Shown here: positions 19,617 through 31,056 of the stretch, piece by piece
How the letters are laid out: each line of letters opens with the position of its first letter
Position numbering within the stretch: position 1 is the first letter of the stretch
Source of the DNA: Kineosporia sp. NBRC 101731
Lineage (GTDB): Bacteria > Actinomycetota > Actinomycetes > Actinomycetales > Kineosporiaceae
Length of the DNA stretch: 64,000 nt
NCBI RefSeq assembly: GCF_030269305.1
Contig: NZ_BSTC01000001.1
Location: forward strand, 1,129,467 to 1,193,466
Direction: 5' to 3'
The notes under the pieces: generated by a model
Databases searched by the model: none
What the model saw: only the letters and a program-made list of their open reading frames with translations
What the model was told of the DNA's origin: nothing
Made by a program: the position numbers and the translations under genes

Positions 19617-20038
19617 GCGTGAAGTTCGACGACATCTCGGTCGGTGAGGAGCTGCCCCCGGCCGACGTCACCGTCACCCGGGCCGACCTGATCCGCTATG
19701 CGGGTGCCAGCGGTGACTTCAACGTCATCCACTGGAACGAGCGGGTGGCCACCTCCGTCGGCCTGCCCGGTGTGATCGCCCACGGCATGTACACGATGGC
19801 GCTCGGCGGGCAGTACGTCAGCGAGTGGGCCGGTGACGCGGGCGCGGTCGTGGAGTACGGCACCCGGTTCACCAACCTGGTGCCGGTACCGGACGACGAG
19901 GCCGGCGCCACGGTCACCTACAGCGGGAAGATCACCAAGACCGACGAGGCGGCTCGAACCGTCACCGTCACCCTGACCGCGCTCCACGCCGGCCAGAAGG
20001 TCCTGGGCAAGGCGATCGCCGTGGTCCGGCTCCCGTGA
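19613..20038 (+). CDS. MaoC-like dehydratase, HadB-type catalytic subunit
   Basis: This 141-residue hot-dog-fold protein carries the hydratase-2 motif GASGDFNVIHWNERVATSVG, with catalytic Asp and His, followed by LPGVIAHGMYTMALGGQYV. It is the catalytic partner of the upstream HadA-like protein, acting on hydroxyacyl-ACP or acyl-CoA. Whether the substrate is a housekeeping or specialised fatty acid cannot be seen; no third hadC gene is present. It overlaps both neighbours, so translation is probably coupled with murB. Confidence 0.9.
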   Translation: MSVKFDDISVGEELPPADVTVTRADLIRYAGASGDFNVIHWNERVATSVGLPGVIAHGMYTMALGGQYVSEWAGDAGAVVEYGTRFTNLVPVPDDEAGATVTYSGKITKTDEAARTVTVTLTALHAGQKVLGKAIAVVRLP

Positions 20039-21075
20039 CTCTTCTGGCCGACCTGACAACCCTTCGGGTGGGCGGCCCGGCCCGCCGGCACGTGATCGCC
20101 GCCTCCGCCGACGACATCCTCGCGGCCGTGCGCGAGGCCGACGACGCCGGTGAGCCGCTGCTGCTGATCGGCGGCGGCTCCAACCTGGTGATCGGCGATG
20201 CCGGGTTCGAGGGCACGGTGATCCAGGTCGCCTCGCGCGGGATCACGGTGCACAACGTCGACTACTGCGGTGGCGCGGAGATCACGGTCGAGGCCGGTGA
20301 ACCGTGGGACGGCGTGGTGGCCCGGGCCGTGACCGAGGGCTGGATCGGCGTCGAGGCGCTGTCCGGCATCCCCGGCTCGACCGGTGCGACGCCGGTGCAG
20401 AACGTGGGTGCCTACGGCCAGGAGGTGTCCGGCACCGTCGCGAGTGTGCGCACCTGGGACCGGGCCGAGCAGAAGATCCGCACGCTGGCCGCGGCCGACT
20501 GTCGCTTCGGTTACCGCGACTCGCTGTTCAAGCGGGAGCGGTTCCGGGGCGGGCCGCGCTACGTGGTGCTGCAGGTGTCGTTCCAGTTCGTCGTCGCGGA
20601 CTTCAGCGAGCCGGTGAAGTACGCCGAGCTGGCCCGTTCGCTCGGCGTGGAGATCGGCGACCGGGTCCCTCTCGCACAGGTGCGGGACAACGTCCTCGAA
20701 CTGCGGGCGGCCAAGGGCATGGTGCTCGACGCGCCCGACCACGACACCTGGAGTGCCGGGTCGTTCTTCACCAACCCGGTGCTGCCGGCCGATCAGGCAG
20801 CCGCGCTGCCCGCCGACGCTCCGCGCTACCCCACCGCCGACGGACTGGTGAAGACCTCGGCCGCCTGGCTGATCGACCATGCCGGTTTTTCCAAGGGTTT
20901 CGGGCTGCCCGGCCCGGCGAGCCTCTCCACCAAGCACACCCTGGCCCTGACCAACCGGGGCCCGGCGGTCACCGCCGACGTGCTCGACGTGGCCCGGCAG
21001 GTACGCGACGGGGTGGAGAAGACCTACGGCGTACGGCTGGTGCCCGAGCCCGAACTGATCGGCTGCGAGCTCTAG
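20035..21075 (+). CDS. murB: UDP-N-acetylenolpyruvoylglucosamine reductase
   Basis: This 346-residue FAD enzyme reduces UDP-GlcNAc-enolpyruvate to UDP-MurNAc in peptidoglycan synthesis. FAD-binding features are LLIGGGSNLVIGDAGFEG and SGIPGSTGATPVQNVGAYGQE. The catalytic Ser lies in WSAGSFFTNPVL, and PEPELIG near the end holds the catalytic Glu. It is the long-loop E. coli-like type. GTG start overlapping the hadB stop. The hadAB-murB order is typical of actinobacteria. Confidence 0.95.
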   Translation: MTLLADLTTLRVGGPARRHVIAASADDILAAVREADDAGEPLLLIGGGSNLVIGDAGFEGTVIQVASRGITVHNVDYCGGAEITVEAGEPWDGVVARAVTEGWIGVEALSGIPGSTGATPVQNVGAYGQEVSGTVASVRTWDRAEQKIRTLAAADCRFGYRDSLFKRERFRGGPRYVVLQVSFQFVVADFSEPVKYAELARSLGVEIGDRVPLAQVRDNVLELRAAKGMVLDAPDHDTWSAGSFFTNPVLPADQAAALPADAPRYPTADGLVKTSAAWLIDHAGFSKGFGLPGPASLSTKHTLALTNRGPAVTADVLDVARQVRDGVEKTYGVRLVPEPELIGCEL

Positions 21076-21147: not shown

Positions 21148-22176
21148 ATGGAGCGCCCGGTCAACACTCTGCCCAAGGCCCATCTGCATCTGCACTTCAC
21201 CGGTTCCATGAGACCGGACACCCTGCGGGAGATGGCGGCGAAGCACCGGATCCGGCTGCCGGAGAGCCTGCGCGAGCACCACCTGCTGCGCCTGACTCCC
21301 GACGAGCGGGGCTGGTTCCGGTTCCAGCGCCTCTACGACTCCGCGCGTGCCTGCGTGCGCGACGAGGACGACATGCGTCGTCTGGTGCGCGAAGCCGCGG
21401 AAGACGACGCCGCCGAGGGGTCCCGCTGGCTGGAGATGCAGGTCGATCCCACGTCGTACGCCCCGCACGTGGGTGGTCTGACCCCGGCGCTGGAGATCGT
21501 GCTCGACGCCGCACGGGAGGCCTCGGAGACCACCGGCTGCCAGGTCGCGATCATCGTGGCGGCCAGCCGGATGCGTCATCCGCTGGACGCGCGCATCCTG
21601 GCCCGGCTGGCGGCCCGGTACGCCGGTGAGGGGTCCGGCACGGTGGTGGGTTTCGGCCTGAGCAACGACGAGCGCCGAGGTGACACCGAGGAGTTCGCGG
21701 GGGCCTTCCGGATCGCACGCAACGCCGGGCTGGCCAGCGTGCCGCACAGCGGCGAACTGAGAGGGCCCGATCACGTCCTGCAGACTCTCGACACCCTGCA
21801 CCCCGACCGCCTCGGGCACGGCGTGCGTGCGGCCGAGAGCCCGGAGGTGCTGGACCGGGTGATCGAGGCTGGTGTGGCTCTTGAGGTCTGCCCCGCCTCC
21901 AACGTGGCACTCGGGGTGTATCCGACGCTGGACGAGGTGCCACTGCAGAAATTGGTGGACGCCGGTGCCCGGGTGGCGCTGGGGGCGGACGACCCGCTGT
22001 TGTTCGGTCCGCGGCTGGCGGCCCAGTACGAGGCGGCGCGTGATGTGCACGGCCTGTCCGACGACGGGCTGCAGTACCTGGCGTCGTCGTCGATCGAGGC
22101 CTCCCGGGCCCCCGACGACGTGAAGAAGCAGCTCCTGGCCGAGGTCGAGGCCTGGGGGAGCAGCGCCACATCATGA
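21148..22176 (+). CDS. Adenosine deaminase-like metalloenzyme
   Basis: This 342-residue TIM-barrel amidohydrolase belongs to the adenosine/AMP deaminase family. Zinc ligands are in KAHLHLHFTGSM (usual HxHLxG is HLHFTG here), VPHSGEL (usually AHAGE), LGHGVRA and LGADDPLLFG. The reaction is probably adenosine to inosine, but the altered HF-TG and PHSGE motifs leave room for another purine, such as an aminodeoxyfutalosine-type substrate. It follows murB by 72 bases and probably has its own promoter. Two hairpins follow. Confidence 0.85.
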   Translation: MERPVNTLPKAHLHLHFTGSMRPDTLREMAAKHRIRLPESLREHHLLRLTPDERGWFRFQRLYDSARACVRDEDDMRRLVREAAEDDAAEGSRWLEMQVDPTSYAPHVGGLTPALEIVLDAAREASETTGCQVAIIVAASRMRHPLDARILARLAARYAGEGSGTVVGFGLSNDERRGDTEEFAGAFRIARNAGLASVPHSGELRGPDHVLQTLDTLHPDRLGHGVRAAESPEVLDRVIEAGVALEVCPASNVALGVYPTLDEVPLQKLVDAGARVALGADDPLLFGPRLAAQYEAARDVHGLSDDGLQYLASSSIEASRAPDDVKKQLLAEVEAWGSSATS

Positions 22177-22405: not shown

Positions 22406-22687
22406 TCAGCTCGGCGCGCCGGCGGCCGCGAGGATGATGGAGATGACGGCGACCCCGACCACGGTCATCGTCACGCCGAGCAGGACGGTCTTCATCAGGA
22501 GCTTGAACGGGTGCTGCAGGACGATCACGAACGGCTGCTGGAACTTGCTGATGATGCTCACCATCACCAGCACCACCGCGCAGACCAGGAGCACGACGAG
22601 CACGACCGCACCCTGTCCTCCGTCGCTGTCCCCCGAGGCGATCAGTGTGTTCAGAGATGATGCGCTTCCCGCGTTGTAGCCGGTCAC
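22406..22687 (-). CDS. Small two-helix membrane protein, unknown function
   Basis: This 93-residue protein matches no family I recognise. Residues 1-26 are polar (GSASSLNTLIASGDSDGGQG), helix 1 spans about 27-47, a short KFQQPFVIVLQHPFKLLMK amphipathic loop follows, and helix 2 spans about 66-88. The GTG at 22687 has GGGAGGGG seven bases upstream, which fixes the start. Shape and size fit a holin-like, channel-like or accessory membrane subunit, but nothing proves that. It is divergent from the HTH gene across a 550-base gap rich in palindromes. Confidence 0.7.
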   Translation of the reverse strand: MTGYNAGSASSLNTLIASGDSDGGQGAVVLVVLLVCAVVLVMVSIISKFQQPFVIVLQHPFKLLMKTVLLGVTMTVVGVAVISIILAAAGAPS

Positions 22688-23237
22688 TGGGTTCCCCTCC
22701 CTCGTGCGGCCGAGCAAGGTGCGGGTCGCAGGGCGACCGCTGATTCCGCGGGGTCCAGAGGTGTTCGAAGACCTGCGGTCCGTCAGTCCTCGTCGCTGAA
22801 GAGGGCGGCGGGGCGACTGGTGTTCAGCTGAAAAGTACTTGACCTCAGTGTGACCACACTGAAGCGTCAAGGCAACCCATTTCAGGTACTGATTCGACCC
22901 AATAAATGAAATTTCAGTGCCATTCAGTCATGCCTCCCAGGAGTGGACTGGCGTTACTGACCCGCCTCCTGAGAGCCGCTGATCATCACCGAGGGTGCGC
23001 AGGAACCGTTGCAACGTTGTCATTTTCGACCGGGCAGTGACATCAATTGGTGTCAATGAAATTGTCGTCCCGACAGTTGTCGACCGCTATTGTTCGAGGT
23101 ATCGGGCAAAGCAGGAAGAGTGCAGGACACGCGCGGTTTCAATTCTGCTCAAGCTCTCCCCGACTGAAGCCCTTCAGTGGTTAACTTGATGAGTCGGCGT
23201 GGGCTGTAGTTCCAGCGGACTTCAGTGAAGTGGGGGT
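22688..23237. promoter_or_regulatory. Regulatory gap with repeated CTTCAGT dyads
   Basis: No credible gene lies in these 550 bases, which are noticeably AT-richer than the flanks. Three dyads share one half-site: TCAGTGT/ACACTGA at 22845-22862, nested in CTTGAC/GTCAAG at 22838-22871; ACTGAAG-CC-CTTCAGT at 23163-23178; and ACTTCA-G-TGAAGT at 23219-23231. Extra single copies occur in TTTCAGTGCCATTCAGTCATG near 22914-22934. The last dyad is only six bases from the HTH start. A shared operator for the HTH protein and the divergent membrane protein is likely. Confidence 0.6.
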
Positions 23238-24440
23238 GTGGTGGAGATGGCCGAGGCAGCGAACACCCGTCTGGGCAACCGGTTGCGGTCCCTGCGGCAG
23301 CATCATTACTCGCAGGTGGTCACCCAACGGCAACTCTCCACCGCGCTGAGGCTGAGCGGTGCACTGATCAGTTCCTGGGAGAGCGGATCGGCGGTCCCCC
23401 CGGAAGACCGTCTCAACGGCTATGCGCGGTTCTTCTGCTCGGAGCGTTCGATCGAGGGGGCGGTGGCCCGGCTGCTGCCGGAAGAAGAGCTCACCCCCGA
23501 TGAGGAGTACACGCGGGAAAGGCTTTTCGAAGACCTGCGGGCACTGCGCAACGAGGTTCTGGACGAGCCGGGCGACTTCGGCCGGGAGACCGGCGCGCTC
23601 GGCGGGCGATTCCTGCACTACGCGGACGGGCAGCCCATCACGATTCTCTGCACTCCGCTCAGCGCCCGGCAGCTGGGGTATGACGATGCCCGGGCGCAGA
23701 CCGGAGACCTGTTGCCGGCGGTGCAGTACACCACCAACCAGCACCACCCCAACTACGTGCGCAACCTCGGTAACGCCGACATCGACGCCCTGATCGAGCT
23801 GGTCGGTCACGTGCGGGCGGAGAACCCGACCGCCGACGTGCAGTGGATGACGTACGACCGGGTCAGCTCGGCCGATCAGTTCACCGGCCACCTGATCCTG
23901 CTCGGTGGGGTGGACGAGAACATCCAGGAGGTGCCGGACGGCACGGTCAGCGTCCTGGGCGTTCTGCGTGACCAGCTCGACGTGCCGATCCGGTTGCAGT
24001 GGGACGAGGACGGCATCGAGTTCGACGGCGAGGTCCAGGTGCTGCTGGACGGCGAGGGCATCCCCACCTCCGACCTCGAGAAGGTCCAGGTGCGCGAACC
24101 GCACCGTCCCGAGTGGGTAGCCGGCACGTCCGACAGCCGCAACCGCCAGTACCTGCGGGGCGTTCCTCAACTGCTCTCCGACGTCGCGATCATCCAGCGC
24201 ACCCGTAACCCGTTCAACCCGGGCGCGTCCGCGACCCGGTTCGGCGGCATGTTCAGCCGTGGCACCTACGGCGCGGTCCGCGCCTTCACCGACGCCCGAT
24301 TCCGCTCGCGAAACGAGCAGTGGCTCGAAAACACCCTCGAATCCGAGGACTTCTGGATGCTGCTGAGGGTTCCGGTCATCGCCGGAACCACGATGACGCC
24401 CGACCTGGGGCGCGCGGCCACCCGCATTCGTACTTCCTGA
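23238..24440 (+). CDS. HTH regulator with a large uncharacterised C-terminal domain
   Basis: This protein of about 400 residues has an N-terminal XRE-like helix-turn-helix (residues 12-66; TQRQLSTALRLSGALISSWE). A roughly 280-residue C-terminal domain follows, with PITILCTPLS, NADIDALIELVGHVRAENP, HLILLGGVD, RTRNPFNP and MFSRGTYGAVRAFTDARFRS. I cannot assign this domain. From memory, similar HTH proteins recur in actinobacteria, perhaps as an alpha/beta ligand or nucleotide sensor. Start codons GTG 23238, GTG 23241 and ATG 23247 are all possible. It is followed by two glycosyltransferase genes and probably controls them through the CTTCAGT dyads. Confidence 0.75.
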   Translation: MVEMAEAANTRLGNRLRSLRQHHYSQVVTQRQLSTALRLSGALISSWESGSAVPPEDRLNGYARFFCSERSIEGAVARLLPEEELTPDEEYTRERLFEDLRALRNEVLDEPGDFGRETGALGGRFLHYADGQPITILCTPLSARQLGYDDARAQTGDLLPAVQYTTNQHHPNYVRNLGNADIDALIELVGHVRAENPTADVQWMTYDRVSSADQFTGHLILLGGVDENIQEVPDGTVSVLGVLRDQLDVPIRLQWDEDGIEFDGEVQVLLDGEGIPTSDLEKVQVREPHRPEWVAGTSDSRNRQYLRGVPQLLSDVAIIQRTRNPFNPGASATRFGGMFSRGTYGAVRAFTDARFRSRNEQWLENTLESEDFWMLLRVPVIAGTTMTPDLGRAATRIRTS

Positions 24441-24462
24441 GCCTTCCTGAGCCTTCCTGAGT
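24434..24462 (+). repeat. 10-base tandem repeat at the HTH stop codon
   Basis: TTCCTGAGCC is repeated 2.8 times, the first copy containing the TGA stop. The unit is not a multiple of three. Confidence 0.8.
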
Positions 24463-24513
24463 CTCCTGCCTGCGACCTGCCCCCGGCCGGTCGCCTGAGC
24501 CGAAAACCGGGTC

Positions 24514-25833
24514 ATGACCTTCATGTCTCCTGCGTCCACGCCGTGGACGCACACTCAGCCGTGCTCGCCCGCCGTTCCAGGGCCGGCACCGGCGCCTGCC
24601 CAGGATCTGGCGGCGGACTACCGCGCCAGCCATTCCGGCCTGCTGAACAGCATCTACGGCCCGGGGCGCCCAACCCTCCCGCCCGAGGGCAGCAAGCTGG
24701 ACGCCTACGGGCCACGGCTCGGCGAGCGTCTGCCGGGCGGCCCCCGGCGCGGTGGCATCGTGGTGCCGACCTGCCGTGACTTCCTCACCACCAAGCCCGG
24801 CCTGCTCTTCGCCGCCGAACTCGCCCAGGCCCACGACTGCTACCTGTTCGTCGTGCTCAGCCGCGACGCCCGGGCACCGGAGTTCCCCGCCAAGATCCGC
24901 GAGATGCTCGGGGAAGCACTGATTCTGGTCGAGCTGGACGAGGTGCACGATGACTGGTCACCGGGGCTGGAGTCCTCGAACGACCCCCTCAGCGCGCTGC
25001 ACCGTGTCAACGATGTCGGCCGCAAGCGCAACCTCGGCCTGATGCTGGGCCAGCGCCTGGGGTGGGAGTTCCTGCTCTTCCTGGACGACGACATCTCCCC
25101 GCACGAACGGGGTTCGACCCTCGACGAGAACCACCTGGCCCATGCCCTCCGGGTGATGACCCTGGACGACGACCTGCAGGCCGTCGGCTGGCCCCTGGTC
25201 GGCTTCGACGACAACTCGGTGGTCGGTCACGCCCGTCCCCGGGCCGGCCTGCCCCAGGACATCTTCATCAGCAGCGGGGCCCTGCTGCTGCGCTGCACCC
25301 AGCAGATGGCCTACTTCCCGGAGAACGTCTACAACGAGGACTGGCTGCTGCTGCTCATGCTGCTGGCCCGCTCGGGCAACTACCAGCGGGCTCTGGCTGC
25401 GGGAGGCCCGGTGCGCCAGCAGGAGTACGACGCGTTCTGCCCGGTGCGCGCCCGGTCCGAGGAGGTGGGGGAGATCCTCGGTGAAGGCCTGATGAACCTG
25501 GTGGAAGACCACGGGCCGGGTTTCGTGAACCTGATGAGCAACCGATTCTGGAAGCGGGTGAAGGCCGGACGCCGCTCTCTGCTGCGCACCATCATGGAGA
25601 AGGTCGCCGATCAGGAGCGCGTCGTCGTCTGCATGAACACTGCACTCCAGACGCACGGGGATATCCCCCTACCCGGCCTGACGAAATACGCCAGAACCTG
25701 GTGGCAGGATCGCGAGCAATGGGAACGTGTGCTGGTCAGCCTGCAGTTCGAGGCGCGGGACCGGCGTTCCGAACCGGAGATCGTGGAGCTACTCATGAGT
25801 CCGCGCGCGCCCTGGTCGTCACTGGCGAACTGA
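24514..25833 (+). CDS. GT-A-like glycosyltransferase, paralogue 1
   Basis: This 439-residue protein has a Pro-rich N-terminus (1-35), a Rossmann-like GGIVVPTCRDF strand near residue 80, and KRNLGLMLGQRLGWEFLLFL leading into DDDI (residues 191-194), the metal/nucleotide-sugar DxD motif. FDDNSVVGHARPRAGLPQDI and YFPENVYNEDWL (NEDW at 274-277) follow, the latter fitting the catalytic-base ED motif of GT2-type enzymes. No membrane helix is seen, so it is cytoplasmic. Donor and acceptor are unknown. ATG 24514 or 24523, with a weak ribosome binding site. It is paralogous to the next gene. Confidence 0.75.
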   Translation: MTFMSPASTPWTHTQPCSPAVPGPAPAPAQDLAADYRASHSGLLNSIYGPGRPTLPPEGSKLDAYGPRLGERLPGGPRRGGIVVPTCRDFLTTKPGLLFAAELAQAHDCYLFVVLSRDARAPEFPAKIREMLGEALILVELDEVHDDWSPGLESSNDPLSALHRVNDVGRKRNLGLMLGQRLGWEFLLFLDDDISPHERGSTLDENHLAHALRVMTLDDDLQAVGWPLVGFDDNSVVGHARPRAGLPQDIFISSGALLLRCTQQMAYFPENVYNEDWLLLLMLLARSGNYQRALAAGGPVRQQEYDAFCPVRARSEEVGEILGEGLMNLVEDHGPGFVNLMSNRFWKRVKAGRRSLLRTIMEKVADQERVVVCMNTALQTHGDIPLPGLTKYARTWWQDREQWERVLVSLQFEARDRRSEPEIVELLMSPRAPWSSLAN

Positions 25834-25954
25834 GGGGGTTGCCAGGCCTCGCTTCTCCCCGTCAGCATCGGTATCGGCCGAGGGCGGACAGTCTCGGCCT
25901 GACAGCGAATTGCTCCCGCCACCCGCTGTCATCGCACGGGGAAAGGCGGGGACC

Positions 25955-27253
25955 ATGCTGGACGGGGAGAAGTGGCGGCCGGTCGCGCACCATGCTTCGC
26001 ATGCGCACCTCATCCGCTCGGATTGGCCTGAGAACTATCAGCGTTCGGTCTCTGCGGTCGTCGTGCCCGCGAGTAGGCCGAGCTGGAACCTGGGGCCCGC
26101 GGTACGGCTGGCCGAGGAACTCGGCTGCCCTCTGGTCGTGGCGTGCAGCGCCCGGGCCGAGGTCGGCGAGGTCGCGCTCGAGCTGGACCGATGGCAGGGC
26201 GTGGCCTTCCGGATCGGCGCCGAGCCGCCCGTTGCCGTGCGCCGGTTGCGCACCCGGCAGCTGGCGCTCGAGACTCCGGCCGACGACCCACGCGTGCCCC
26301 GGGCCCGCCGGGAGCCGGCCGGTGACCGGACCGGCCGGGCCGTGCTGACCCGGGGCCTACTGACCCGGGCCCGAGCAGTACCCGACGGGGCACGGAGCCA
26401 GGCGCCCTATGTGGACGTCTCGACCAAGCGCAATGTCGCGCTGCTGTTGGCCCGGCAGCTCGGCTGGCGCCGGTTGTTGTTCCTGGACGACGATATTCAG
26501 CCACCGCCGGCCCGGGAGATCCTGCGGGCCTCGGCGATGCTCGGGCCTTCCGGCGCTTCGATGGCCAGCTGGCCGGCGCAGGAGTTCCCCGACAACTCGG
26601 TGGTCTGCCACGCCCGGCGCGTGGTCGGTCTGGAACAGGGCACGTTCCTCGCCGGCGGCTGTCTGCTCGTCGACCTCACCCGCACGCTGCCGTACTTCCC
26701 CGGGGTCTACAACGAGGACTGGCTGTTCTGCTGGGAGGCCGTGCGCGACCGTCGCATGGCCATGCCCGGCAGCGTCGATCAGATCCCGTACAACCCGTTC
26801 GACCCGCGCCGCGCGACCCGGGAGGAGTTCGGCGACGTGCTGGGGGAAGGACTCTTCGCGCTGCTGCACCGTTCGCCCGCCGAGGTCCTGCTGGGGCTGG
26901 CCGGTCAGGGCCCGGACGCCGGGCGGGCCCGCCTGGTCGAGCCTGCCCGCTACCGGGGCTACTGGTCGCAGGTGCTCGCCGGGCGGCACGCGATGCTGGC
27001 CGAGGTGACAGGTCGGCTCGAGGCCCGGGCGGCCACCGACCCGGAGGCGGCGGTGCAGTTGCGGGCCGTGCGCGCAGGGCAGGAGCGACTGAACCTGATC
27101 ACGCCGTACGAGCTGGCCGAGTTCGTCGCGCTCTGGCTGCAGGACCTGCAGACCTGGCGGTACGAGCTGGCCCAGCTGCACCGGCAGGAGACCTTCAAGG
27201 GGGCGTTCAATCAGCTCGGTATCGACGAGTTCCAGAGGGTGGGGGTCATGTAG
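25955..27253 (+). CDS. GT-A-like glycosyltransferase, paralogue 2
   Basis: This 432-residue protein is clearly related to the preceding one. The shared blocks are SAVVVPASRP near residue 33, STKRNVALLLARQLGWRRLL then FLDDDI (DDD 178-180), EFPDNSVVCHARRVVGLEQG, and YFPGVYNEDWLFCW (NEDW 253-256), plus EFGDVLGEGLFALL. It is a probable nucleotide-sugar-dependent enzyme with DxD metal site and ED base. The ATG at 25955 has GGAAAGGCGGGG upstream; an in-frame TTG at 25910 is unlikely. It ends one base from the stop of the convergent response regulator, with no terminator between. Confidence 0.75.
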   Translation: MLDGEKWRPVAHHASHAHLIRSDWPENYQRSVSAVVVPASRPSWNLGPAVRLAEELGCPLVVACSARAEVGEVALELDRWQGVAFRIGAEPPVAVRRLRTRQLALETPADDPRVPRARREPAGDRTGRAVLTRGLLTRARAVPDGARSQAPYVDVSTKRNVALLLARQLGWRRLLFLDDDIQPPPAREILRASAMLGPSGASMASWPAQEFPDNSVVCHARRVVGLEQGTFLAGGCLLVDLTRTLPYFPGVYNEDWLFCWEAVRDRRMAMPGSVDQIPYNPFDPRRATREEFGDVLGEGLFALLHRSPAEVLLGLAGQGPDAGRARLVEPARYRGYWSQVLAGRHAMLAEVTGRLEARAATDPEAAVQLRAVRAGQERLNLITPYELAEFVALWLQDLQTWRYELAQLHRQETFKGAFNQLGIDEFQRVGVM

Positions 27254-27254
27254 A

Positions 27255-27896
27255 TCAAGAAGGGGGCGGTAGTGCACCGGCCTGGATCGCGACCATCACC
27301 GCCCGGGTCCGGTCGTCGACGCCCAGCTTGGCGAAAACCCTGAGCAGATGGGTCTTCACGGTGGCCTCGCCGATGAACAGCTCACGCGCGATCTGGACGT
27401 TGGACAGGCCCCGCGCCACCGCCCGCAAGACCTCGACCTCACGCGGCGTCAGCGGGTTCGCCGGGGTCGGTGCCGGTGGGGTGCGCAGACGGGAGACCAG
27501 TCGCGCGGCGACCGGTGGGGCCAGTACGGTCTCGCCGCGGGCGGCGGCGCGCACCGCGTCCACCAGCACGGGGCGGGGTGTGTCCTTCAGCAGGTAGCCG
27601 GTGGCCCCCGCCTCGACCGCGTGCACGATGTCGTCGTCCGTGTCGTAGGTGGTGAGCACCAGTACCCGGGTCTGCGGCAGGGTGGAGGTGATGGTGCGGG
27701 TGGCGCCGACGCCGTCCAGTCCGGGCATCCGCAGATCCATGAGCACCACGTCCGGGCGCAGCGCGGTGGCCCGGGAGACGGCCTCGACGCCGTCACCGGC
27801 CTCGCCCACGATCGTCATGTCGGGCTCCACCTCGAGCAGACCGGCCAGGCCGGAACGAACGATCGGATGGTCGTCCGCCACCAGGATCCGGATCAC
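27255..27896 (-). CDS. NarL/LuxR-family response regulator
   Basis: This 213-residue protein has a receiver domain (residues 1-120) with acidic pocket ADDHP, phosphoacceptor Asp in VVLMDLRMPG and Lys in GYLLKDTPRP. A C-terminal LuxR HTH follows: NPLTPREVEVLRAVARGLSNVQIARELFIGEATVKTHLLRVFAKLG. The GTG start overlaps the stop of the kinase gene (GTGA), so the pair is translationally coupled. It is the output of the adjacent kinase and probably controls the ABC exporter in the same operon. Confidence 0.93.
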   Translation of the reverse strand: MIRILVADDHPIVRSGLAGLLEVEPDMTIVGEAGDGVEAVSRATALRPDVVLMDLRMPGLDGVGATRTITSTLPQTRVLVLTTYDTDDDIVHAVEAGATGYLLKDTPRPVLVDAVRAAARGETVLAPPVAARLVSRLRTPPAPTPANPLTPREVEVLRAVARGLSNVQIARELFIGEATVKTHLLRVFAKLGVDDRTRAVMVAIQAGALPPPS

Positions 27897-29086
27897 CCGG
27901 TCACGTCCCTCGGTACCCGTACGGTGATCGTCGTGCCCCGGCCGGGGGTGCTGGCCACCTCGAGGCCGCCACCGCCCGCCCGGGCCCGGTCACGCATCCC
28001 CGTGAGCCCGAAACCGCGTGGTGCCACCTCGTCCTCCATCGTGAAACCCTTGCCGTCGTCCGAAATCTCGATCATCGCGTGCTGCGCCGTACCGATCAGT
28101 CGCACCGAGACCGAACGGGCACCCGCATGTCGCCGCACGTTCGCCAGGCCCTCCTGGGTGGCGCGCAGCAGCACCACCTCACGATCCCGGGTGAGACCGG
28201 TCAGGTCGCCCGTCACCGAGACGTCAGTAGCGATCCCGGTCTCCGGCCCGAACCGGCCGGCGAGCCGGCGTACCGCGTCGGCCAGGGTGCTTCCGTCCAG
28301 CCCGACCGGGGAAAAGGCGGCAACCAGAGATCTTGCCTCGCCGAGGTTTTCGCGAGCGACCGACTCGATCAGAGCGAGCTTTCCGTCGAGTGCCGAACCT
28401 TCCCCGGGCAGTGCCGCCCGGGCCACCTGCGCGAGCATCACGATGCTCGTGAAGCCCTGGGCCAGGGTGTCGTGGATCTCCCGGGCCAGTCGTTCACGCT
28501 CGGCCTGCACACCCTGGGTGTGGTGCGCGCGCCCGAGCTCCGCCCGGGTCTGCTCGAGTTGCTCGATCAGCTGCGACCTTTCGGCCGACTGATCGATCAC
28601 ACCCTGGATCCAGAGGCCGAACGCGCCGGAGAACACGGTGCTCAGCACCATGATCGGGAGCGTGTGGCCGGCGTTCTCCGCGGTCCAGCCACCCCCGGTC
28701 ATGAAGCCGAGCGTGGCGGCCAGCCCGAGCAGGCCGGTCAGGACCACGCCGGTCCGATGGTCCGGCGAGAACAACCACACCTGCGGGAACACGATGCACA
28801 GCAGCAGGGCCAGTGACGAGTCCGTGCCGCACGCCACCCCGGTCGCGAGGATCACGGTCAGCAGATAGGCGATCTCGGGTCGCCCGCGGCCCGGCACGTG
28901 CATGTCGGGGCGGAACGTGAGGAAGGCCAGCACGATCGCCGCGATGCACACCAGGGCGAGGTTTCGTTGCGCCGCGCTCAGATCGGTGGCGGTCACCAGG
29001 CGGATGACGGCCACCACCATGAAGGCCGCGAACCCCAGGCCCCACCCGCGGGCGAAACGGTTCCAGACGTGCGGCGCCGTGCTCAC
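27893..29086 (-). CDS. Sensor histidine kinase, HisKA_3 (NarL-partner) type
   Basis: This 397-residue protein has four to six N-terminal membrane helices (residues 10-165) with very short loops, so it probably senses within or near the membrane, as LiaS- and DesK-like kinases do. A coiled linker leads to the dimerisation domain with phospho-His in ERLAREIHDTLAQGFTSIV. The HATPase_c domain has ISDDGKGF and GFGLTGMRDRARAGGG. The GTG at 29086 overlaps the permease stop, which sets the start; upstream in-frame codons only shadow the permease gene. Confidence 0.9.
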   Translation of the reverse strand: MSTAPHVWNRFARGWGLGFAAFMVVAVIRLVTATDLSAAQRNLALVCIAAIVLAFLTFRPDMHVPGRGRPEIAYLLTVILATGVACGTDSSLALLLCIVFPQVWLFSPDHRTGVVLTGLLGLAATLGFMTGGGWTAENAGHTLPIMVLSTVFSGAFGLWIQGVIDQSAERSQLIEQLEQTRAELGRAHHTQGVQAERERLAREIHDTLAQGFTSIVMLAQVARAALPGEGSALDGKLALIESVARENLGEARSLVAAFSPVGLDGSTLADAVRRLAGRFGPETGIATDVSVTGDLTGLTRDREVVLLRATQEGLANVRRHAGARSVSVRLIGTAQHAMIEISDDGKGFTMEDEVAPRGFGLTGMRDRARAGGGGLEVASTPGRGTTITVRVPRDVTG

Positions 29087-29889
29087 CGCGGGCCGGGTCG
29101 CTGCCAGCGGAAGGTCCGCAGGGCCAGTGCCGTCCCGATCACCAGCCATGCCGTCAGTATCAGGGCCGTCAGGCCGAGCTGCCAGGATCCGGAGACCTCG
29201 GCCCCGGCGAAGTCCGCGGGCAGGAACACCGAGCGCATGCCCTGGGCCAGCCAGCGCAGCGGGAAGAGCGAGCCGAGCGTCTGCATCCAGCCCGGGAGAT
29301 CGGTGAACACGAAGAACACCCCGGAGACGAACTGCAGCACGATCACCACCGGGGTGACCACCGCCGCCGCACTCTTCGACGAGCGGGCGAGCGACGAGTA
29401 GGCGATGCCCAGCACCGTACCGGCGCTGGTCCCGAGCACGAAGACCCAGGCGAACCGCAGCCACAGCATCGGGTCGGTGGGGAGCTCGAGGTGGAACAGC
29501 AGGGCCCCGACGGCCAGCAGGATCGCGGTCTGCAGCACGCTGGTGACCAGGACCAGCCCGATCTTGCCGAGGAAATAGGCCATCGGCGGCATCGGGGTGC
29601 CCCGCAGGCGCTTGAGTGTGCCGTCGTCGCGCTCGACCGCGATCCCGATGGCCAGCGTCTGGAAGCTGGACAGGACGACACCGGACGCGATCATCCCGGC
29701 GGTGAAGTACTGGGTGAACGACACCCCGGGGGCCAGGTCGTCGTCGAAGACCGATCCGAACACGAACAGCAGGATCACCGGGAAGGAGAAGCTGAACACC
29801 ACGGTCTCGCGCAGCCGGAAGAACTCCTTGAGCTCGAGCCCGGTACGCGCCAGACCCAGCGAAAGTGTGCTCGGCAGAGCGTCATTCAT
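29083..29889 (-). CDS. ABC-2 type transporter permease
   Basis: This 268-residue membrane subunit has six predicted helices. RLRETVVFSFSFPVILLFVFGSVF near the start and LKRLRGTPMPPMAYFLGKI in the cytoplasmic coupling region are typical of DrrB-like ABC-2 exporters. It pairs with the ATPase encoded just upstream (8-base overlap) to export a drug, lipid or peptide, or to confer self-protection. It overlaps the kinase gene downstream. Confidence 0.92.
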   Translation of the reverse strand: MNDALPSTLSLGLARTGLELKEFFRLRETVVFSFSFPVILLFVFGSVFDDDLAPGVSFTQYFTAGMIASGVVLSSFQTLAIGIAVERDDGTLKRLRGTPMPPMAYFLGKIGLVLVTSVLQTAILLAVGALLFHLELPTDPMLWLRFAWVFVLGTSAGTVLGIAYSSLARSSKSAAAVVTPVVIVLQFVSGVFFVFTDLPGWMQTLGSLFPLRWLAQGMRSVFLPADFAGAEVSGSWQLGLTALILTAWLVIGTALALRTFRWQRPGPR

Positions 29890-30724
29890 GGCCCGCTCCG
29901 ATCATTCCGAGATAGATGTCCTCCAGGGTCGGGCGCAGCACCTGAAGATCCGGCACCTCGCCGTCGTACCGCTGCGACAGGTGCGCCACCGTGCTGGTCG
30001 GGGTATCGGTGAGCTCCTCGCCGTCCCGCCACACCACCCGGGCCTGCCGCCCCTGCCGCCCGCCCAGCTGGGCCGGCGTGTTCACCTCGATCAGCCGTCC
30101 GCCCACGATCACCCCGACCCGCCCGGCCAGCTGCTCGGCCTCGTCCAGGTAGTGCGTGGTCAGCAGGATCGTCGTGCCCTCGTCCCGCAGCAGCCGGATC
30201 AGTTCCCAGAACGAGCGCCGGGCCTGCGGGTCGAACCCCGTCGTCGGCTCGTCGAGGAACAGCAGATCGGGAGAACCGACGATGCCCAGCGCCACGTCCA
30301 GACGCCGCCGCTGCCCACCGGACAGGGCCCGCACCCGGGTGTTCCGCTTCGGCTCCAGACCCACGGCCTGGATCACCTCGTCCACGTCACGGGGTCGCGG
30401 GTAGTACCGGGCGAAGTGCCCGACCAGCTCACCGACACTCAGCTCGGCGTAGTCGTTCGAGGTCTGCAGCACGATGCCGATCCGGGCCCGCCAGGCCCGT
30501 CCGGCCTGCTGGGGGTCCTGCCCGAGCACACTGACCTCACCACCGTCGCGCTCGCGGAATCCCTCGAGGATCTCGGTCGTGGTGGTCTTGCCGGCCCCGT
30601 TGGGACCCAGCAGCGCGAAGATCTCCCCGGCCCGGACGTCGAGGTCGAGATCTCTCACCGCGACCAGGTCGCCGTAGCGTTTCGCCAGGCCGCGGACCCG
30701 GATGGGTAGGGAATCGGTATCCAT
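29882..30724 (-). CDS. ABC transporter ATP-binding protein
   Basis: This 280-residue DrrA-type ATPase has Walker [13 protein letters not shown] (residues 39-50), Q-loop LQTSNDYAELSV, signature LSGGQRRRLDVAL, Walker B LLFLDEPTTGFDP and switch His in LLTTHYLDEAEQLA. The C-terminal DrrA-like extension ends in RPTLEDIYLGMIG. It is the first gene of the four-gene operon ATPase-permease-kinase-regulator. The ATG at 30724 lacks a clear ribosome binding site. A 22-base palindrome lies about 55 bases upstream. Confidence 0.92.
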   Translation of the reverse strand: MDTDSLPIRVRGLAKRYGDLVAVRDLDLDVRAGEIFALLGPNGAGKTTTTEILEGFRERDGGEVSVLGQDPQQAGRAWRARIGIVLQTSNDYAELSVGELVGHFARYYPRPRDVDEVIQAVGLEPKRNTRVRALSGGQRRRLDVALGIVGSPDLLFLDEPTTGFDPQARRSFWELIRLLRDEGTTILLTTHYLDEAEQLAGRVGVIVGGRLIEVNTPAQLGGRQGRQARVVWRDGEELTDTPTSTVAHLSQRYDGEVPDLQVLRPTLEDIYLGMIGAGHE

Positions 30725-30778
30725 GCCGTCATACTGGTTCCGAGAGTCGCCGCGTAGGGGCAACCAACGGGCTGACAG

Positions 30779-30800
30779 GCGTCCACCGGTCGGTGGACGC
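30779..30800. promoter_or_regulatory. 22-base perfect palindromic site upstream of the ABC/two-component operon
   Basis: GCGTCCACCG and CGGTGGACGC are perfect complements separated by two bases. The two-base centre makes a hairpin unlikely and an operator likely. It could be the binding site of the NarL-type regulator. It also lies between that operon and tRNA-Trp. Confidence 0.5.
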
Positions 30801-30949
30801 ACCTGGCAGCGCAGCGGTGCAGACACCCCCGATGAGGTGCCGGTTCGACCCAAGGCCTCATCGATGCGTAGACTCTCGCCCGGGTGGTTGCGATCCGCCA
30901 GTCTGAGGCGCACCGATGGTGTGCTGACTGGAAGTGAGCTTCTATTCGT

Positions 30950-31022
30950 AGGGCAGTGGCGCAATTGGTAGCGCACCGGTCTCCAAAACCGGCGGTTGTG
31001 GGTTCGAGTCCCTCCTGCCCTG
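30950..31022 (+). tRNA. tRNA-Trp (CCA)
   Basis: A 73-nucleotide cloverleaf: acceptor AGGGCAG/CTGCCCT, D stem GCGC/GCGC, anticodon stem CCGGT/ACCGG with loop CTCCAAA, T loop TTCGAGT, discriminator G. Anticodon CCA specifies Trp. The T stem contains one T-T mismatch. It precedes secE, as is usual in actinobacteria. CCA is not encoded. Confidence 0.95.
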
Positions 31023-31032
31023 CGGGATGTGT

Positions 31033-31056
31033 TCGTGGCAACAGGATGTGCCACGA
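31033..31056 (+). terminator. Hairpin after tRNA-Trp
   Basis: TCGTGGCA and TGCCACGA pair around an eight-base loop, 11 bases after the tRNA. It is possibly a processing or attenuation structure. Confidence 0.5.

Follow-up and report, generated by a model that had tools for sequence, protein, structure and literature searches.

DxD and ED are the nucleotide-sugar and catalytic-base motifs of glycosyltransferases (GTs) of the GT-A fold, a class to which hyaluronan synthase, AvpGT, mannosyl-3-phosphoglycerate synthase and GpgS, together with most of the fold matches reported below, presumably belong. These enzymes were compared with two GT-like proteins, GTa and GTb, encoded in a stretch of 64,000 nucleotides (the window; contig NZ_BSTC01000001.1, positions 1,129,467 to 1,193,466) from the 8.26 Mb genome of Kineosporia sp. 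NBRC 101731. At positions 22406-27253 of the window, both genes follow that of an XRE-family regulator with a helix-turn-helix (HTH) domain, itself preceded by a divergent gene for a small membrane protein of two helices (the hairpin protein). It is proposed here, with a probability of about 0.5, that these genes form a conserved, self-regulated and sensor-controlled glycosylation module acting at the membrane.

GTa resembles the above GT-A enzymes in its fold as matched by Foldseek, in its DDD motif and in a later acidic motif, but shares with them 7-16% identity among the 50 matches listed, and the module GTs differ from them by invariant blocks of their own (DNS, E317, E324) and, in GTa, by a mostly helical C-terminal third. 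The TET-associated glycosyltransferases (TAGT, PF20691) are likened to GTa by a weak profile match and by structural neighbours among viral proteins; GTa misses the cut-off of this family, however, and relatives of the module GTs were not found in phages. XRE-family regulators whose operator lies where their own gene begins share with the module XRE the HTH_31 domain and a palindrome at the start site (27/53), whereas the C-terminal domain without Pfam match and the near-exclusive pairing with the module GT set the latter apart. No recognisable description of the module was present in the literature searched, including the passages seen of PMC8195603, PMC11959488 and PMC7159879.

Co-occurrence of the regulator and glycosyltransferase genes

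The HTH regulator, GTa, GTb and the two-helix protein were all found where the original prediction had placed them. Recurrent co-occurrence across actinobacteria, which it had named as a check, was observed as well, XRE and GT being found together in three family-level actinobacterial groups (Kineosporiaceae and two groups designated f36 and f35). The module is real and tightly linked. GTa matches were obtained in 10 of 58 relatives (source genome included) and full-length XRE profile matches in the same 10. In a class sample of 394 genomes, again including the source, GT profile matches were found in 10, nine of them with a full-length XRE, some in two pieces; any XRE match at all was given by 137 genomes, the remainder being short and, among the matches listed, nearly all in the HTH. 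In the tenth GT-positive genome (G248), the GT is partial and a search for XRE found none. In the f35 family (190 genomes; E <= 0.001 for GT and E <= 1e-15 for XRE, some XRE matches being partial, as in G795 and G814), GT was found in 33 genomes, XRE in 32 and both, counted by eye, in 29 (Fisher p 1e-26; p-values are not exact since the genomes are related), with a patchy distribution over 19 of 68 genera.

Linkage was also close in distance. In the searches of relatives and class, a GT is present no more than 2.5 kb away from 26 of 27 full-length XREs, and 27 of 31 GT matches have an XRE within 4.5 kb. Of the four GT exceptions, three are located on short contigs or at the end of a contig, unlike G248. 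The f35 loci take in 26 of the 32 XRE-positive genomes in the set of 26 XREs used below, and also G182 and G359, but not G707, G777, G795 and G814; because these 26 regions were chosen around known XRE and GT matches, the presence of GT there is no independent test. A spread through the whole phylum was considered and rejected, as 17 of 296 genomes besides the source gave only partial matches near DDD (E 9e-7 to 6e-4); one of these, on inspection, has GEDL in place of NEDW and looks like another GT-A family. An origin from phages or plasmids was likewise rejected, GT relatives not being found in phages, plasmids or viral contigs.

Throughout, neither gene calls nor control and XRE starts derive from annotation; they come from a crude open reading frame (ORF) caller of our own or from alignments to profiles. 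Matches below 250 bits were excluded from trees and motif counts and those below 150 bits from the box count at 53 XRE starts; owing to these cut-offs, fragments in L032, L033, L035 and L091 were left uncounted.

GTa and GTb as probable GT-A-type enzymes

GTa (24514-25833, forward strand) and GTb (25955-27253, forward strand, ATG start, with an alternative upstream TTG at 25910 possible) have DDDI and NEDW blocks in common, as the paralogous pair that had been predicted. In GTa, DDD (residues 191-193, 25084-25092) is a putative metal and nucleotide-sugar site and NEDW (residues 274-277, 25333-25344) a putative catalytic base, roles that we presume from GT-A enzymes; by alignment with the other GTs, the corresponding motifs of GTb lie at 26486-26494 and 26711-26722, all four on the forward strand. 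All 30 aligned GTs have DDD, DNS, H239, N274, D276, E317 and E324, and W277 is kept in 29; the candidate acidic base would be either D276 (30/30) or E275 (28/30).

The GTa model is of good quality (predicted local distance difference test (pLDDT) 86, predicted template-modelling score (pTM) 0.87) and gave 84 Foldseek matches in the PDB at E <= 0.001, with probability 1.00 in the matches listed. Hyaluronan synthase (5e-7), AvpGT (2e-6) and mannosyl-3-phosphoglycerate synthase (2e-6) were at the top, GpgS also being among the best, with a target-normalised template-modelling (TM) score of up to 0.57. In the structural comparison that had been suggested beforehand, GTa thus matches GT-A-fold enzymes, in both the PDB and the viral searches, and GTb is linked to it by the shared motifs. 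Glycosyl transfer of the GT-A kind would, as we infer it, be the chemistry of the module, and both enzymes, since they keep the motifs, are probably active.

The two enzymes are old paralogues. Their overall identity is about 30% (34% over 269 residues in a BLAST alignment of their close relatives), and in the tree of 30 GTs they are separated by a branch with 100/96 support, placing them on opposite sides of an ancient divergence and ruling out a recent tandem duplication. A separate arrangement was seen in L028 (G003), where two hairpin-XRE units are followed by two GTs, one of which has NHDW in place of NEDW.

The XRE regulator and its operator-like box

The regulator (23238-24440, forward strand, 400 residues) has an HTH at residues 11-66, matched by HTH_31 with E 5e-7 and 30.3 bits (cut-off 27), and a C-terminal domain at about residues 125-400. 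HTH_31 was matched by 13 of 13 XRE members at E <= 1. The C-terminal domain, described beforehand as unassigned, indeed gave no Pfam, NCBIfam or PADLOC match outside the HTH. The model of the whole regulator is less good than that of GTa (mean pLDDT 80, pTM 0.71), and its best match, a BcsB-like fold, was not read as homology (TM 0.25, E 2e-4).

Parts of this domain were also met outside the regulators. Near a GT, the related proteins L032:7580-8440 (G010, E 2e-7) and L035:6885-7688 (G008, E 6e-4) have a hydrophobic N-terminus and, as a weak match, part of the sensor domain, and lack an HTH; judged by eye, G153 has a protein resembling both, and a search of 197 class genomes gave the protein of L032 in no further genome. 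In L068:742-2298 (G141), a 519-residue protein without Pfam match has a C-terminal part matching the module XREs (E down to 7e-14) and an N-terminal part that appears HTH-like by eye. A PADLOC scan of three sensor-domain proteins gave no defence-model match outside the HTH. Found also on membrane-anchored proteins, the sensor domain is a candidate for an undescribed ligand-binding domain.

The divergent control region (22688-23237, from the membrane-protein gene to the regulator gene) shows islands of conservation in an alignment of seven Kineosporia regions. The palindromes noted in advance are present: the inverted repeat TCAGTGTG-2nt-CACACTGA at 22845-22862 and the operator-like box TTCAGTGAA at 23221-23229, within CTTCAGTGAAG and directly ahead of the XRE start. 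By raw count TTCAGTGAA is unremarkable (4 matches with one mismatch in the window, 4.4 expected), so that its weight comes from its position and conservation, the block TTCAGTGA ahead of the XRE start being invariant in 7 of 7 Kineosporia regions. In 387 kb of loci there are 14 copies of the full palindrome TTCASTGAA, of which 13 precede an XRE at a distance of no more than 700 bases, and 11 of 26 XREs have it. TTCA-N1/2-TGAA is present at -40 to +6 of 27 of 53 XRE starts compared with 0 of 482 control starts, where background density predicts about 0.2 and 1.8 boxes, respectively; by group, it was found at 6 of 7 XREs of the Kineosporia main locus, 3 of 10 in f36 and 18 of 28 in f35, where many boxes are extended (TGAA-S-TTCA-NN-TGAA). 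From this enrichment, autoregulation of XRE through TTCA/TGAA palindromes is likely, and the place of the box, adjoining the XRE start, would suggest repression. A regulon elsewhere in the genome was considered and rejected, CTTCAGTGAAG occurring there a single time. Eight other XRE-bearing genomes contain 59 TTCASTGAA sites, of which 5 lie within 250 bases upstream of XRE and the other 54 were not followed.

The hairpin protein and neighbouring acetyltransferases

The gene of the hairpin protein (22406-22687, reverse strand, GTG start) is transcribed away from the regulator, and the 93 residues and two hydrophobic segments ascribed to its product were confirmed. A ribosome-site-like GGAGGGGAA precedes its start and, read by eye, is conserved in the Kineosporia region alignment. 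The protein was aligned in seven Kineosporia rows; in 15 of 15 comparisons among six species the fewest changes fall on second codon positions, but 14 of the 15 show more nonsynonymous than synonymous codons, which indicates a fast-evolving protein. ORFs of the same kind (divergent, 45-220 residues, two hydrophobic segments, high third-position GC) were found upstream of 18 of 26 XREs compared with 5 of 245 control gene starts, and upstream of 16 of 26 XREs in the f35 set, one of whose regions (L149), with 54 bases upstream, was too short to reveal such a gene. The small membrane protein thus recurs as part of the module by position and topology.

Searches for GNAT acetyltransferases gave relatives at 13 of 24 loci and at 21 of 30. 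They lie within 1.5 kb of the GT at 34 places (152 kb) as against 4 elsewhere (381 kb), although the three GNAT queries were drawn from these same loci, which favours near matches. Such proximity was seen in 31 of 54 loci, and in 16 of 30 f35 fragments a match to the f35-type GNAT (46-82% identity) abuts the GT. No GNAT was found near the window module, the Kineosporia main locus having a second GT. The GNAT gene of other loci and the box at the XRE start are additions to the original prediction. In L091 (G248:C101), a partial GT copy stands with a GNAT relative, and no XRE was found nearby.

Proposed mechanism and alternative explanations

The claim of a regulated glycosylation system is supported by the GTa fold match, the co-occurrence of XRE and GT and the recurrent membrane protein. 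In the mechanism proposed, XRE would bind the TTCA/TGAA palindromes just ahead of its own start and repress the operon to which it belongs, the divergent gene of the membrane protein perhaps included, until the C-terminal domain senses a ligand relieving repression. As a guess, this ligand might be the acceptor or product of the glycosylation, or else a metabolite of envelope stress. The GT-A enzymes would then work in the cytosol, at the membrane, taking sugar from a nucleotide donor for transfer, with DDD holding the metal and E275/D276 acting as base; the two-helix protein would be membrane anchor or acceptor. Since a second GT here takes the place of the GNAT that stands beside the GT in many other loci, two sugars may be added in turn.

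Repression, ligand sensing, enzyme activity, the operon, the role of the hairpin protein and the order of the steps are all what we infer. Several observations weigh against this reading. A box is lacking at 26 of 53 XRE starts, among them all four at the second Kineosporia locus and all four in other Kineosporiaceae; the two-base spacer was added to the definition after the f35 loci were seen, and in the form set in advance, TTCASTGAA, the box precedes only 4 of 26 XREs in f35. For the enzymes, query-normalised TM was at most 0.39 among the 50 GTa Foldseek matches listed, the structural match is that of GTa, GTb being assigned to the fold by shared motifs, and 19 GT members gave no Pfam match better than E 0.015 and none to Glycos_transf_2 (GT2) at E <= 1. 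By the same criteria, the hairpin ORF is missing at 8 of 26 XREs and at 10 of 26 in f35, and sequence homology of the hairpin proteins across families was not demonstrated (hhalign probability 3.5%, P 0.012), so that their equivalence is one of position and topology. Finally, in f35 there are 4 genomes with GT but no XRE and 3 with XRE but no GT, and in G010 the main locus retains XRE with no GT there.

A possible, though doubtful, alternative is that the enzymes make a small metabolite, glycosylated and at other loci also acetylated (an aminosugar, for instance, or a modified nucleoside), which XRE senses, with the hairpin protein aiding export or self-protection. AvpGT, a top fold match of GTa, is a GT2 nucleoside 3'-O-glucosyltransferase according to PMC11959488, but it is just one among many GT-A matches of similar score. 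A GNAT closely follows the GT in many f35 loci, and adenosine deaminase is encoded close to the module in Kineosporiaceae and, as judged by clustering (with Pfam for four members), at 7 of 7 f36 loci; however, the f35 loci L085 and L087 have no member of the deaminase cluster within 20 kb, and no further recurring biosynthetic gene was noticed in the locus maps. It seems unlikely that the substrate is the two-helix protein, as a hairpin of ribosomal origin which would be glycosylated, acetylated by GNAT in many loci, and watched in its modified form or through its sugar by the sensor; if so, glycosylated membrane peptides of a new kind would be represented here, which might serve as surface signals or act on rival bacteria.

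A role in defence or conflict, in which the GT would modify DNA, RNA or a host target once XRE senses invasion, is quite improbable. The resemblance to TAGT, found in 10 of 19 GTs with a best E of 0.015, is weak, GTa itself scoring 15.3 bits (cut-off 27.5) over the DDD to NEDW stretch, as is that of 4 of 19 GTs to the phage HMC glucosyltransferase family (best 0.2). TAGT-labelled proteins stood at ranks 7 and 43 of the viral fold search with GTa, and the patchy spread in f35 would suit such a role, but the PADLOC matches of the four window proteins are confined to the HTH, the absence of relatives from phages, plasmids and viral contigs holds for GT (XRE was not searched there), and gene order at the main locus is conserved across Kineosporia, which is not what a mobile island would show. 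This synteny, with the same flanks across six Kineosporia genomes that are partly kept in other genera of the family, would fit unrelated neighbours held together by common ancestry alone, an explanation that is hardly credible and largely contradicted by the recurrence of the XRE-GT pair in different surroundings, at a second locus in the source genome (G000:C8) and two other Kineosporia and, different again, in f36 and f35.

As for the proposed glycosylation module, its GT family, sensor domain and hairpin protein pass no family threshold in the libraries run, yet recur jointly in three family-level groups, and the operator-like box and gene order offer direct handles on what is glycosylated.

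Flanking genes and further observations

Among the four window proteins, the Pfam cut-off was passed by the HTH of the regulator only, and NCBIfam and PADLOC scans gave sub-threshold or HTH matches. The setting predicted for the island, between murB and a two-component/exporter operon, stood on the latter side, where response regulator, histidine kinase and ABC exporter genes occupy 27255-31054; murB (20035-21075) is not the direct neighbour, an adenosine deaminase gene (21148-22176, by Pfam) lying in between. The second locus of the source genome (L037, G000:C8:305001-325000) consists of an XRE-GT pair with two GNAT genes beside it and an asparaginase gene further on, and its XRE start lacks a TTCA/TGAA box. 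Among named relatives, Kineosporia mesophila is the closest (GTa 92% identical). Compared with the nearest relative, the regulator is 99% identical while GTb, GTa and the hairpin protein are 95%, 92% and 91% identical, making the regulator the slowest-changing of the four. The adenosine deaminase gene of the window adjoins the module, and a deaminase gene likewise neighbours it in f36 loci.

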